NCBI RefSeq assembly: GCF_900142895.1
Contig: NZ_LT670847.1
Location: 1,302,001 to 1,366,000, forward strand
Direction of reading: 5' to 3'
DNA length: 64,000 bases
DNA from: Vreelandella subglaciescola
GTDB taxonomy: Bacteria > Pseudomonadota > Gammaproteobacteria > Pseudomonadales > Halomonadaceae
The position numbers were made by a program, and so were the translations under genes. The notes under the pieces were generated by a model. That model was not told the DNA's origin. It saw nothing but the letters and a program-made list of their open reading frames with translations, and searched no databases. Within the stretch, counting starts at the first letter, position 1, and each line of letters begins with the position of its first letter. Shown piece after piece: positions 48,486 to 50,329 of the stretch.

Positions 48486-49559
48486 TTACGCCAGCCGCTC
48501 GGCGGCGGTTTTCAGCAGGCGCTCGGTGGTGTCCCAGCCGATACAGGCATCGGTCACGGAGACGCCGTGGCGTAGTGTACTACCCAGCGATTGTTTGCCC
48601 TCGTGCAAGTGGCTTTCAAGCATCAGCGCGGCCAGATTGAGGTTGCCCGCCTCGCGCTGGGCGAGCACGTCGAGCATTACTTCGCTCTGGCGGCGATGAT
48701 CCTTGCGCGCATTGGCGTGGCTGCAGTCCACCATCAGCCGCGGGTTTTGCCCGGCGCTCTCCAGCGCCGCCGCCGCTGCGCGCACGTGCGCCGCCTGATA
48801 GTTGGGTTCACCGCTGCCGCCGCGCAATACCAGATGGGTGTGCGGATTGCCCGGCGTTTGCTGCACCACCGGCCGGCCGCCGGCATCCATGGCGAAGCGC
48901 TGGTGCGGGTGGGCAGCAGCCGCCATGGCATCAACCGCGACCTGCACGCCGCCGTTGGTGGCATTCTTGAACCCCACCGCTGCGCCCAAATCGCTTGCCA
49001 GTTCGCGGTGCAGCTGGGATTCCGTGGTGCGGGCCCCGATGGCCACCCAGCTGAGCAGATCATCCAGATACGGCGCAAGCATGGGTTGCAAAAGCTCGGT
49101 GGCAATCGGCAGACCACATTCGGCGACGTCGCGCATCAACTCGCGAGACAGCTCAAGCCCCCGGGCGATGTCGCCGCTGCCGTCAAGGTCGGGGTCGTAG
49201 GCCAGACCCTTCCAGCCCACCGTGGTGCGCGGCTTTTCCACGTAGACACGCATCACCGGCAGGATTTGCCCGGCGACGTCGTCGGCAAGCGCGGCAAGGC
49301 GTTCGGCGTATTCAAGGGCCGCGCGGGGATCGTGCACCGAGCACGGCCCCACCACCACCAGCAGGCGCGAATCCTCGCCCGACAAAATACGCTTTACCGC
49401 CGCACGCTGGGCGCTGATTTGCGCGCTCAGTGCGCGGCTGACAGGATACGCGGCGCTCAGCGCGTCGGGCGTGGGCAAGGCGTTCGCAGCGCTTGGCGAT
49501 GCGGTGGAAGACGAGGTGACGGCCGTGGCAGATTCAAGGGCAGCAGCAGTGGCATTCAT
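48486..49559 (-). CDS. aroG: 3-deoxy-7-phosphoheptulonate (DAHP) synthase, class I
   Basis: First step of the shikimate pathway: condensation of erythrose-4-phosphate with phosphoenolpyruvate. The 357 residues carry VVGPCSVHDPRAALEYAERL, MRVYVEKPRTTVGWKG, IGARTTESQLHRELAS and VGFKNATNGGVQVAVDAM. MVDCSHANARKDHRRQ and LMLESHLHEG complete the type I AroF/G/H barrel. The N-terminal ~30 residues are low-complexity Ala/Ser/Thr. Which aromatic acid inhibits it cannot be told with confidence. The leader (49563-50068) indicates attenuation control by aromatic amino acids; GGAG lies upstream of the ATG and a leader ORF stops 3 bases before it. Confidence 0.95.
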   Translation of the reverse strand: MNATAAALESATAVTSSSTASPSAANALPTPDALSAAYPVSRALSAQISAQRAAVKRILSGEDSRLLVVVGPCSVHDPRAALEYAERLAALADDVAGQILPVMRVYVEKPRTTVGWKGLAYDPDLDGSGDIARGLELSRELMRDVAECGLPIATELLQPMLAPYLDDLLSWVAIGARTTESQLHRELASDLGAAVGFKNATNGGVQVAVDAMAAAAHPHQRFAMDAGGRPVVQQTPGNPHTHLVLRGGSGEPNYQAAHVRAAAAALESAGQNPRLMVDCSHANARKDHRRQSEVMLDVLAQREAGNLNLAALMLESHLHEGKQSLGSTLRHGVSVTDACIGWDTTERLLKTAAERLA

Positions 49560-49562
49560 GGG

Positions 49563-49730
49563 TTAACTCTCCGTACGCAAGGGACATCGTTGGCTCTTGC
49601 CACCCGCATGTACACGGCCGGAGGTGGCAGCTGCTGCCGGCCGCGCGGGGCTAAATCGCCACCCGTAGTCGTACGCCGGATAGCCGTACAAAACGGGAGA
49701 TTCGATGTTGGCCGGTGCGCGGTAACTCAT
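49563..49730 (-). CDS. Second aromatic-rich leader peptide of aroG
   Basis: A 55-codon ORF directly before aroG. AGGAG lies 8 bases before its ATG, and its TAA stop is 3 bases from the aroG ATG, so ribosomes finishing it could restart on aroG. The peptide contains VLYGYPAYDYGWRFSP (residues 13-28), with four Tyr, one Trp and one Phe within 12 residues. Its YGY and AYxYG-W-F order echoes the upstream leader. The downstream codons overlap two alternative stems. I know of no named family for it. Confidence 0.75.
   Translation of the reverse strand: MSYRAPANIESPVLYGYPAYDYGWRFSPARPAAAATSGRVHAGGKSQRCPLRTES
49598..49643 (-). promoter_or_regulatory. Mutually exclusive stem pair inside leader 2
   Basis: Stem A pairs 49637-49643 with 49615-49621 (7 bases, CGGCCGG with CCGGCCG). 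Stem B pairs 49623-49629 with 49598-49604 (7 bases, TGCCACC with GGTGGCA). The 5' arm of B lies inside the loop of A, so both cannot form together. The 5' arm of A starts about four codons after the Trp/Phe codons at 49661-49653. No U-run follows. Confidence 0.5.
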
Positions 49731-49799
49731 GGTGCAGCTCCTGTGTAATCAATCGCTTTAGCGGATACTTCCAATTTTTTCGGGCCGACGTATAAACGC

Positions 49800-49835
49800 A
49801 AAAAACCCCGGCTGGGGATTACCCACCGGGGTTTT
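49800..49835 (-). terminator. Attenuator terminator between leader 1 and leader 2
   Basis: On the minus strand AAAACCCCGG (49835-49826) pairs with CCGGGGTTTT (49811-49802) around a 14-base loop, and a run of six T's ends the structure (49805-49800). It is a strong rho-independent terminator placed inside the leader, 40 bases after the leader 1 stop and 240 bases before aroG. Confidence 0.85.
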
Positions 49836-49854
49836 CGCGGCAGGCAACCCGTAG

Positions 49855-49900
49855 GGGGATGCCCGTTGGCGCGACTCAATCGCCGGCCACGGCCATCCCC
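49855..49900 (-). promoter_or_regulatory. Long competing hairpin of the aroG attenuator
   Basis: On the minus strand GGGGATGGCCGT (49900-49889) and ACGGGCATCCCC (49866-49855) are complementary at 11 of 12 positions. The 5' arm overlaps leader 1 codons a few triplets after its aromatic run. This is the usual position for the pause or protector hairpin of an amino-acid attenuator. Downstream GGGTT (49853-49849 region) can pair with AACCC of the terminator arm as an antiterminator. Confidence 0.6.
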
Positions 49901-49989
49901 TGGCTAAACCAGTAACCATAGCCATAGGCAAACGCGGTGCATTGCACCGGTGCAAAAAATACCCTGTAAGCGAAATCGACGGTATTCAT
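49876..49989 (-). CDS. First aromatic-rich leader peptide of the aroG attenuator
   Basis: A 37-codon ORF, MNTVDFAYRVFFAP at the start, with FAYGYGYWF at residues 20-28. In total it holds five Phe, four Tyr and one Trp among 37 residues. The aromatic run is followed by the competing hairpin and terminator, the standard leader-peptide arrangement. The initiation site is weak (CAGG upstream). Codons 11-18 span a perfect 14-base palindrome TTGCACCGGTGCAA (49942-49955). Confidence 0.8.
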   Translation of the reverse strand: MNTVDFAYRVFFAPVQCTAFAYGYGYWFSQGMAVAGD

Positions 49990-50038
49990 ACGTGTTGCCT
50001 GCGGGTCGTGTTGCCGTGAAAATAAAACCACTGGCGCC

Positions 50039-50068
50039 AGAGTAGCCTGATCACAGCCCCTCTGGCAA
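50039..50068 (-). promoter_or_regulatory. Candidate promoter of the aroG leader
   Basis: On the minus strand TTGCCA (50068-50063, 5 of 6) and TACTCT (50044-50039, 3 of 6) are 18 bases apart. Transcription would begin about 45 bases before leader 1. Confidence 0.35.
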
Positions 50069-50077
50069 GACGGCCGG

Positions 50078-50203
50078 CTAGCCGGTAAATGTCTGGATCC
50101 AGCCGATGGTGGCAGGCAGGCAGGTCATGCCCACCAGCACGATCAGCCCCATCAGGATGGAGAGAAAGCCGGTATCGTCGTAAGAGTTTTCATCGCGGGC
50201 CAT
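50078..50203 (-). CDS. 41-residue single-span membrane protein, unknown
   Basis: MARDENSYDDTGFLSILMGL continues to one hydrophobic helix (about residues 13-34) and a short ITGF-like end (TIGWIQTFTG). AAGGAGG lies 6 bases before the ATG, one of the strongest ribosome sites in the window. This makes translation likely despite the small size. It sits between the aroG leader and fre, all on the minus strand. I do not recognise the family. Confidence 0.6.
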   Translation of the reverse strand: MARDENSYDDTGFLSILMGLIVLVGMTCLPATIGWIQTFTG

Positions 50204-50329
50204 ACAAGCCTCCTTGTGGTTGATACGTTTCAAGCGGACTTCTGTCCGCGTGCAGAGCCTTGGTTTATCAAGCTGAGCATCTCAAACCCAGCCTTTCAAA
50301 TCCAGTTTAGCAAACTCTTGGCCGGCGTT

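Follow-up and report, generated by a model that had tools for sequence, protein, structure and literature searches.

A twin aromatic leader ahead of the DAHP synthase gene aroG is a probable variant of leader-peptide attenuation

Two short aromatic-rich open reading frames (ORFs) precede the DAHP synthase gene aroG in the window, by which we mean the whole stretch of 64,000 nucleotides analysed here, and this twin aromatic leader is real and probably a variant of leader-peptide attenuation. Both ORFs, a set of conserved helices, their alternative folds and a constraint on codons are established computationally, and we consider it probable that the DAHP synthase gene is governed by a leader made of two modules, with module 1 acting as a ribosome-mediated transcription attenuator and module 2 consisting of the second aromatic ORF. 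On computable features, module 1 probably works like an attenuator of the trp/phe type, with a switch by ribosome position that is predicted from modelling. The leader would sense Tyr, Trp and Phe and would turn expression ON under starvation. ORF1 would be translated while it is being transcribed, and a shortage of Tyr-, Trp- or Phe-tRNA would halt the ribosome on its Y-W-F core. The halted ribosome should then allow hairpin 1:2 to form just ahead of it, leaving segment 3 free to pair with segment 4 and thereby block the terminator (ON). With charged tRNAs, the ribosome would instead pass through segment 1, segment 2 would capture segment 3, and the terminator would form (OFF); the RNA released in this OFF state would be the Rfam RNA P15 in Pseudomonas. 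Because module 2 lies downstream of the terminator, it is present on read-through mRNA only, and its W-R-F codons lie about one ribosome footprint ahead of a conserved hairpin. We propose more tentatively, and with somewhat more doubt than confidence, that module 2 tunes aroG translation via ribosome coupling at overlapping stop and start codons. Under this reading P15, an Rfam small RNA with no stated role, becomes a candidate attenuator, open to experimental test, for the enzyme that opens the aromatic pathway in Pseudomonas and Halomonas, both of which are genera used in biotechnology. Genomes that carry the second leader and genomes that lack it would then form a ready-made comparison, and the leader would offer a clear example in which to examine selection on codons for their decoding speed in attenuators.

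Organization of the leader and the module 1 RNA

On the minus strand, the order of elements ahead of aroG (ATG at 49559) is a promoter-like motif, ORF1, the terminator, ORF2, and aroG itself (Table 1). All of the coordinates in a preliminary description of this locus were re-derived and all of them hold, including those of ORF1 (37 codons with the run FAYGYGYWF; peptide MNTVDFAYRVFFAPVQCTAFAYGYGYWFSQGMAVAGD), of a hairpin complementary at 11 of 12 positions (arms GGGGATGGCCGT, from 49900, and ACGGGCATCCCC, to 49855), of the U-run terminator, and of ORF2 (55 codons, YGYPAYDYGWRF), which has its own AGGAG site and stops 3 nt before the aroG ATG. A GTG at 50031 is a possible alternative start of ORF1. 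The motif class TTGnnn-N15-18-TAnnnT occurs upstream of the ORF1 core in 40/46 Pseudomonas-type loci (148-164 nt away from it) and in 14/50 Halomonadaceae loci (127-293 nt, 154 in the window), with 1.4 expected in either group; the output of a generic scan of 49500-50300 did not include the promoter-like TTGCCA-N18-TACTCT.

Table 1. Features of the aroG locus in the window
Feature	Position	Strand	Basis or occurrence
Promoter-like TTGCCA-N18-TACTCT	50039..50068	-	Motif class upstream of ORF1 core
ORF1, first aromatic leader peptide, 37 codons	49876..49989	-	Core in 51/51 Halomonadaceae (L029 by eye) and 46/46 Pseudomonas-type loci
ORF1 core F-A-Y-G-Y-G-Y-W-F-S	49903..49932	-	Y-W-F Phe codon TTT in 95/96 loci
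Segment 1, within ORF1	49889..49900	-	Helix 1:2: 97.5% of cells paired, both-side changes at 3/8 pairs
Segment 2	49855..49866	-	Partner of segment 1 or segment 3
Segment 3	49839..49851	-	Partner of segment 2 or segment 4
Segment 4, antiterminator partner within terminator	49815..49825	-	Helix 3:4: 93.6% of cells paired, both-side changes at 3/8 pairs
Intrinsic terminator with U-run	49799..49835	-	Sequence, folding, covariation
Shine-Dalgarno (SD) of ORF2, AGGAG	49738..49742	-	ATG and SD in 91/92 loci
ORF2, second aromatic leader peptide, 55 codons	49563..49730	-	46/51 Halomonadaceae, 46/46 Pseudomonas-type loci
UGG-CGA-UUU-AGC (W-R-F-S), nearly nucleotide-invariant core of ORF2	49650..49661	-	CGA 91/92, TTT 91/92; 12-mer once in genome
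Hairpin A, arms 49646-49637 and 49621-49612	49612..49646	-	Stem of at least 7 bp in 78/81 family loci, 7.9 expected
Helix B, GCCACC 49628-49623 / GGTGGC 49604-49599	49599..49628	-	95.4% of cells paired, both-side changes at 2/6 pairs
aroG Shine-Dalgarno CGGAG, within ORF2	49569..49573	-	Sequence
aroG, class I DAHP synthase	48486..49559	-	TIGR00034, 439.5 bits (cut-off 173.2); PF00793

We compared the leader across the loci of aroG relatives, 51 from Halomonadaceae and 46 of the Pseudomonas type (two of these 46 from unplaced Gammaproteobacteria MAGs). Two contigs were present in both of two collections and appear twice, as L017/L036 and L022/L038. Both ORFs are kept across the Halomonadaceae and Pseudomonas-type loci. 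The ORF1 core was found by pattern in 50 of the 51 Halomonadaceae loci, with L029 recognized by eye as Y-W-R-W-F, and in all 46 of the Pseudomonas-type loci; an ORF1 start with an SD was found in 36/50 and 46/46, respectively. ORF2 is missing from five Halomonadaceae loci, namely four of Salinicola and L029. Core windows over the relatives are 42-64% aromatic in frame 0 versus 0-25% in the other two frames, a comparison in which the Y-W-F and W-R-F residues favour frame 0 by construction, since the loci were anchored on them. The position two codons before Y-W-F encodes Tyr, Trp or Phe in 43/50 Halomonadaceae loci by way of TAT, TAC, TGG, and TTT/TTC, and thus the conserved feature at this position is simply an aromatic residue. 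Variant cores also exist: the ORF1 core reads Y-W-R-W-F, with an inserted W-R, in five genomes of genus g19 (L029, L205, and L209-L211), and the ORF2 core reads Y-W-R-W-R-F in genus g7 (L202-L204 and L206-L208). The variants look like cores lengthened by a TGGCGC unit, which hints at a relationship between the ORF1 and ORF2 cores; an origin of the pair by duplication is unproven.

Three features expected of an attenuator were found in module 1, as ORF1 is a short predicted ORF with clustered codons for the products of the pathway, an intrinsic terminator lies ahead of the structural gene, and a conserved, mutually exclusive antiterminator is provided by helix 3:4, which covaries. The RNA from 49935 to 49795 folds 3.3 sd better than dinucleotide shuffles, and the 5' arm of hairpin 1:2 lies inside ORF1, a point that the preliminary description did not mention. 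Module 1 alignments comprised 41/50 Halomonadaceae and 42/46 Pseudomonas-type loci after near-identical sequences had been dropped, and covariation was assessed against shuffles that keep the relatedness among sequences. In the 41 Halomonadaceae sequences, helices 1:2 and 3:4 together have 95.5% of their cells paired, with 38 cells changed on both sides (10.6 in shuffles) and six pairs so changed (3.0 in shuffles). The competing set, helix 2:3 plus the terminator, has 88.1% of its cells paired, with 35 both-side-changed cells (12.1 in shuffles) and eight pairs (4.9 in shuffles), while its further pair types are unexceptional, being reached in 64/500 shuffles. Controls in which the helices were slid drop to 30-66% paired cells, a comparison that favours the module 1 helices because they were first drawn on L039, one of the aligned sequences. 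Helices 1:2 and 3:4 thus covary strongly, whereas in Pseudomonas helix 3:4 carries an internal mismatch in many sequences. A terminator scan of 49500-50300 on both strands found one site, that of module 1, with 0.9 expected, so the terminator call rests on conservation rather than on the scan. In the folded structure of the window, segment 4 is part of a long helix.

To relate these folds to the position of the ribosome, we used a virtual ribosome, with RNA folded only ahead of its edge (placed at an assumed 15 nt from the P site) and with the probability of a helix averaged over its five best pairs. In 38 of the 41 aligned Halomonadaceae sequences, with RNA made as far as segment 3, P(1:2) was 0.87 with Tyr in the P site, P(1:2) was 0.31 and P(2:3) 0.75 with Trp in the P site, and P(2:3) was 0.88 with Phe or any later codon there. 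Once segment 4 had been made in these same sequences, mean P(3:4) was at least 0.95 as long as the P site had not passed Tyr, was 0.86 on Trp, and ranged over 0.56-0.70 thereafter. The switch in the model occurs as the P site advances from Tyr to Phe; it is incomplete at equilibrium and depends on kinetics. The 42 Pseudomonas-type sequences switch at the same step and in the same direction in the model. Without a ribosome, Halomonadaceae RNA folds ON, the early Pseudomonas-type transcript forms an extra hairpin over the Tyr-Trp codons plus 2:3 (OFF), and the Pseudomonas-type fold is mixed once segment 4 has been made. In the window, the early transcript switches between Tyr and Trp in the P site, and at equilibrium the antiterminator wins at most later ribosome positions (0.99 vs 0.005), so that termination there needs helix 2:3 to have formed first, as the RNA emerges. 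The folding model predicts that a stall up to the Y-W codons leads to antitermination and that helix 2:3 wins in the emerging RNA when the ribosome has passed Phe. The earlier claim that the first leader comes with a complete attenuator is thus backed by covariation and by modelled folding with the ribosome at different positions.

ORF2, its helices and its codons

ORF2 holds a second hairpin beyond its core, which the preliminary description did not include. The stem of this hairpin A starts 3-17 nt past the core Phe codon (78/81 loci, under a criterion of at least 7 bp with 6 G-C pairs), and its arms have been rewritten with pairing kept in genera g7, g10, g15, and g19. It is overlapped by helix B, either as a pseudoknot or as an alternative. 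Alignments for module 2 used 36/46 Halomonadaceae and 34/46 Pseudomonas-type loci, again with near-identical ones dropped, and hairpin A and helix B together have 96.4% of cells paired, with 8 both-side-changed cells versus 1.5 in shuffles. Both helices are absent in Pseudomonas-type loci with a short ORF2 (e.g. L048, L085, and L090), and the ORF2 RNA from 49735 to 49545 folds only 1.7 sd better than shuffles.

The ORF2 stop codon of Halomonadaceae lies between a 4-nt overlap with the aroG start and 7 nt before it in 41/46 loci, and this proximity suggests coupling in that family. It also bears on the strongest of the rival explanations, in which ORF2 is a mere translational coupling device whose aromatic codons act as a flow brake and not as a sensor. 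Besides the position of the stop, this explanation can draw on the abundance of CGA, since at least two CGA codons occur in 91/92 ORF2s, the core CGA being joined by at least one further in-frame CGA after the core (49589-49587 in the window, near the ORF2 end). However, the stop of Pseudomonas-type loci is 28-50 nt upstream of the aroG start, mostly with a G+C-rich hairpin in between, and a core that is 42-46% aromatic would be superfluous for plain coupling; we regard this explanation as rather unlikely. As to how ORF2 might act on aroG, modelled opening energies of the aroG start under an ORF2 stall gave a weak trend of ~1.7 kcal/mol in 37/46 Halomonadaceae loci, which is reversed in six Halomonadaceae loci, the window among them, and does not appear in Pseudomonas. 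With the ribosome ~30 nt past the core, the Halomonadaceae aroG start reopens beyond the stall level. A blocking of the aroG ribosome site by ORF2 was rejected on these grounds, as the trend is weak, reversed in the window and absent in Pseudomonas. Pairing with an anti-SD CUCCG was likewise rejected: candidate helices were found, and their covariation was unconvincing. Thus, from the earlier proposal that the first leader controls transcription and the second translation, the former part stands with module 1 as the attenuator, but for ORF2 the accessibility trend is weak and in the window opposite.

An alternative role for ORF2 is that of a second transcription attenuator or a Rho-sensitive region, comparable to the tandem attenuators of mgtCBR. 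The ORF2 core, its spacing to the hairpin and its position do resemble those of ORF1, but across both strands of 49500-50300 the sole terminator-like site belongs to module 1, and the same scan of the window found no U-run terminator after ORF2, which makes this role unlikely in our estimation.

The codons of the two cores are nearly frozen. The core Phe codon is TTT in 186/188 cases across both cores, the exceptions being one TTC and one Tyr, as compared with 15/133 aroG Phe codons in Halomonadaceae and 8/223 in Pseudomonas-type loci (4-11%). Similarly, the Arg codon of W-R-F is CGA in 91/92 loci (89/90 distinct ORF2 leaders), as opposed to about 4% of the aroG Arg codons (66/1521 in Halomonadaceae and 43/1171 in Pseudomonas-type loci), and none of 82 Arg codons at the eight ORF2 positions before the core is CGA. 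Within aroG, CGA is the least used codon of the CGN box, but AGA and AGG are at least as rare. Because the loci share ancestry, none of these counts represents independent events. Tyr codons of ORF2 before the core, counted in 49/51 and 46/46 distinct leaders, follow normal usage in Pseudomonas (TAC 90, TAT 17) and depart from it in Halomonadaceae (TAT 89, TAC 31). Outside the core, Pseudomonas ORF1 prefers TTT over TTC by 65 to 15, and thus a part of the codon freeze is a general wobble-codon bias.

Pairing was rejected as the cause of the frozen UGGCGAUUUAGC, because no consistent partner was found (helices of at least 6 pairs, best five each, 29 loci). The most frequent partner of the ORF2 core was module 1 segment 3, as GGGUCGCC with GGCGAUUU, and this pairing was dropped as an explanation because of a mismatch wherever segment 3 is GGGCCGCC (e.g. 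L014). In the window, the ORF2 core UGGCGAUUU (49661-49653) is complementary, with G-U pairs, to segment 3 (49850-49843); the segment 3 partner is GGGUCGCCA in several Pseudomonas-type loci, and the complementarity is not universal. A programmed frameshift was also rejected, since the UAG of the other frame (ATT TAG) disappears in loci with ACC in place of AGC (14/46 of the Pseudomonas type), and no slippery heptamer was seen on reading the ORF2 loci. CGA codons are slowly decoded, and decoding speed appears to be the likeliest cause of the frozen codons. It is conceivable, albeit doubtful, that the two leaders act in series as a sensor and share one stall cassette, U-G-G (C-G-A) U-U-U A, in which exact codons and not amino acids alone are selected. 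The wobble-read UUU and the rare CGA would then hold the ribosome at a set step before a hairpin, module 1 would gate transcription, module 2 would gate the translation of escaped mRNAs, and codon identity would set the gain. If true, this would amount to a combined transcription-translation attenuator for one amino acid family with programmed codon pausing.

Distribution of the two modules

To sample the family, we drew 121 genomes evenly and found module 1 with its model in 110 of them, spanning 20/24 genera. Every one of the 103 genomes whose AroG is close (E < 1e-110) has the attenuator, as do 7 of the remaining 18, and it lies beside aroG wherever coordinates allow checking. Among those 110 genomes, the ORF1 core was found by pattern in 105, and the other five, of genus g19, have Y-W-R-W-F. 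Relatives that keep aroG and lack either ORF had been named beforehand as evidence against a two-stage sensor, and such relatives do exist in part: ORF1 is kept, but the W-R-F core of ORF2 is present in 81/110 and missing in 29/110 of the family genomes with ORF1. ORF2 is therefore separable, and the pair is not an obligate two-stage sensor. Of these 29 loci, 16 were inspected. Module 1 is apparently directly before aroG in 23 of the 29 (g3, g4, and four of g19), which include 10 that were inspected, the rest of g4 judged by coordinates and the rest of g3 unchecked, while the spacer is kept in the other six (g8, g17, and two of g15). Hence about 23 of the 110 genomes lack ORF2 altogether, and 29 lack its W-R-F core. 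This distribution implies that ORF2 was lost or changed several times, or gained. Two of the loci, L226 (G007, MTYFYFEIGAWYYV...) and L223 (G109, MRYYSYFSGFPFHWRS...), have a second ORF with seven aromatic residues and no W-R-F; weaker aromatic-rich second ORFs occur in G046 and G017, and no aromatic ORF was seen on inspection of the locus without W-R-F in G090.

Beyond the family, a class-wide search with the module 1 model matched 19/274 genomes at E up to 0.01. Four matches were strong (the genome of the window, G015, G282, and G291), and the other 15 were weak (E above 2e-5), 10 of them covering the terminator part only. Neither core was found in 13 distant aroG loci from other phyla (L099-L111, with L101 cut off and having no upstream sequence), and a search of plasmids with a Pseudomonas-type ORF1 peptide returned no match. 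The locus L115 comes from outside the order; ahead of its aroG lies an element resembling ORF1/P15 that scores 69.8 bits, slightly below the P15 cut-off, and an Arg-rich short ORF occupies the place of ORF2, with no recognisable ORF2 core.

Relation to P15 and to known leaders

Rfam RF00627 (sRNA P15) was scored on 20 of the 97 loci, with P. aeruginosa outside the set, and exceeded its cut-off before aroG in 12/12 Pseudomonas-type and 0/8 Halomonadaceae loci. With 21.9 bits the window stays below the cut-off of 70 and is counted as a P15 counterpart, not as a member. The P15 match extends from the aromatic codons of ORF1 into the terminator, where it stops, and a model built solely from Halomonadaceae recovers the P15 position in a different family (G282, E 7e-17). 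We read P15 in Pseudomonas as the probable terminated product of module 1 of the aroG leader. P15 could alternatively be a free-standing, trans-acting small RNA that lies next to aroG incidentally, or a riboswitch. Its Rfam type is "Gene" and not cis-regulator, a terminated leader could act in trans in the way that the available text of PMC7298713 describes a trans role for the Sinorhizobium trp leader peptide, and P15 was suggested as a riboswitch in 2008 from a synteny shared with a TPP riboswitch, according to the available text of PMC2527527. These alternatives appear improbable, as the RNA overlaps the conserved in-frame aromatic core and the stop of ORF1, carries mutually exclusive helices, and has a counterpart in 103/103 family genomes with a close AroG, beside the gene where this is checkable. 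It is very improbable, in spite of the conserved in-frame cores, that ORF1 or ORF2 encodes a working small protein, given that both peptide ends vary among genera, neither ORF has a Pfam or NCBIfam match, and RNA helices overlap much of the conserved tail.

Leader-peptide transcription attenuators of the trp, phe, his, and leu type are well established. The aroG leader shares with them a short ORF rich in codons for the end product, alternative hairpins, an intrinsic terminator and a biosynthetic gene downstream, but it differs in addressing three aromatic amino acids and their common first enzyme and in having a second leader ORF after the first. Its wiring would also be the reverse of trp, because here a stall allows 1:2 to form and thus leads to the antiterminator. 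A literature search returned neither an aroG leader peptide in Pseudomonas or Halomonas nor a twin-leader arrangement, a result that is no proof of absence as subscription papers lay outside its scope. The earlier statement that no described case matches therefore stands for the pair but not for its first half, which Rfam holds as P15 in Pseudomonas, and tandem attenuators as such are known from Salmonella mgtCBR (PMC3641672). As far as the available text of that source goes, mgtCBR has tandem attenuators, mgtM and mgtP, through which two signals act on transcription; both leaders have two short ORFs, one of which senses charged tRNA in mgtCBR, whereas the aroG leader has aromatic codons in both ORFs and no terminator-like site after the second. 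The ermBL/ermBL2 pair (PMC8274638) similarly places two leader peptides before one gene under translational control, but its induction is by erythromycin and the available part of the source mentions no transcription attenuator. The Corynebacterium glutamicum aroF leader, F-Y-F, is another aromatic leader before a DAHP synthase gene, but it belongs to another phylum and is reported as a single leader in the available text (PMC4046766).

The source genome is a single contig of 3.11 Mb, and its nearest named relative by AroG is Halomonas colorata (75%). The cores TGGCGATTTAGC and TAYTGGTTTAGC each occur once in it, at the aroG locus, with no other copy among exact matches. No aromatic leader lies within 600 nt of its second DAHP synthase gene (L002, G000:C1:580509-581516; 47% identical). 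Upstream of the leader, at 50203-50078 (-), lies an ORF with an AGGAGG site for a 41-aa small membrane-type protein (MARDENSYDDTGFLSILMGLIVLVGMTCLPATIGWIQTFTG), which had no match in Pfam or NCBIfam, and a similar peptide is found at the same place in L029.
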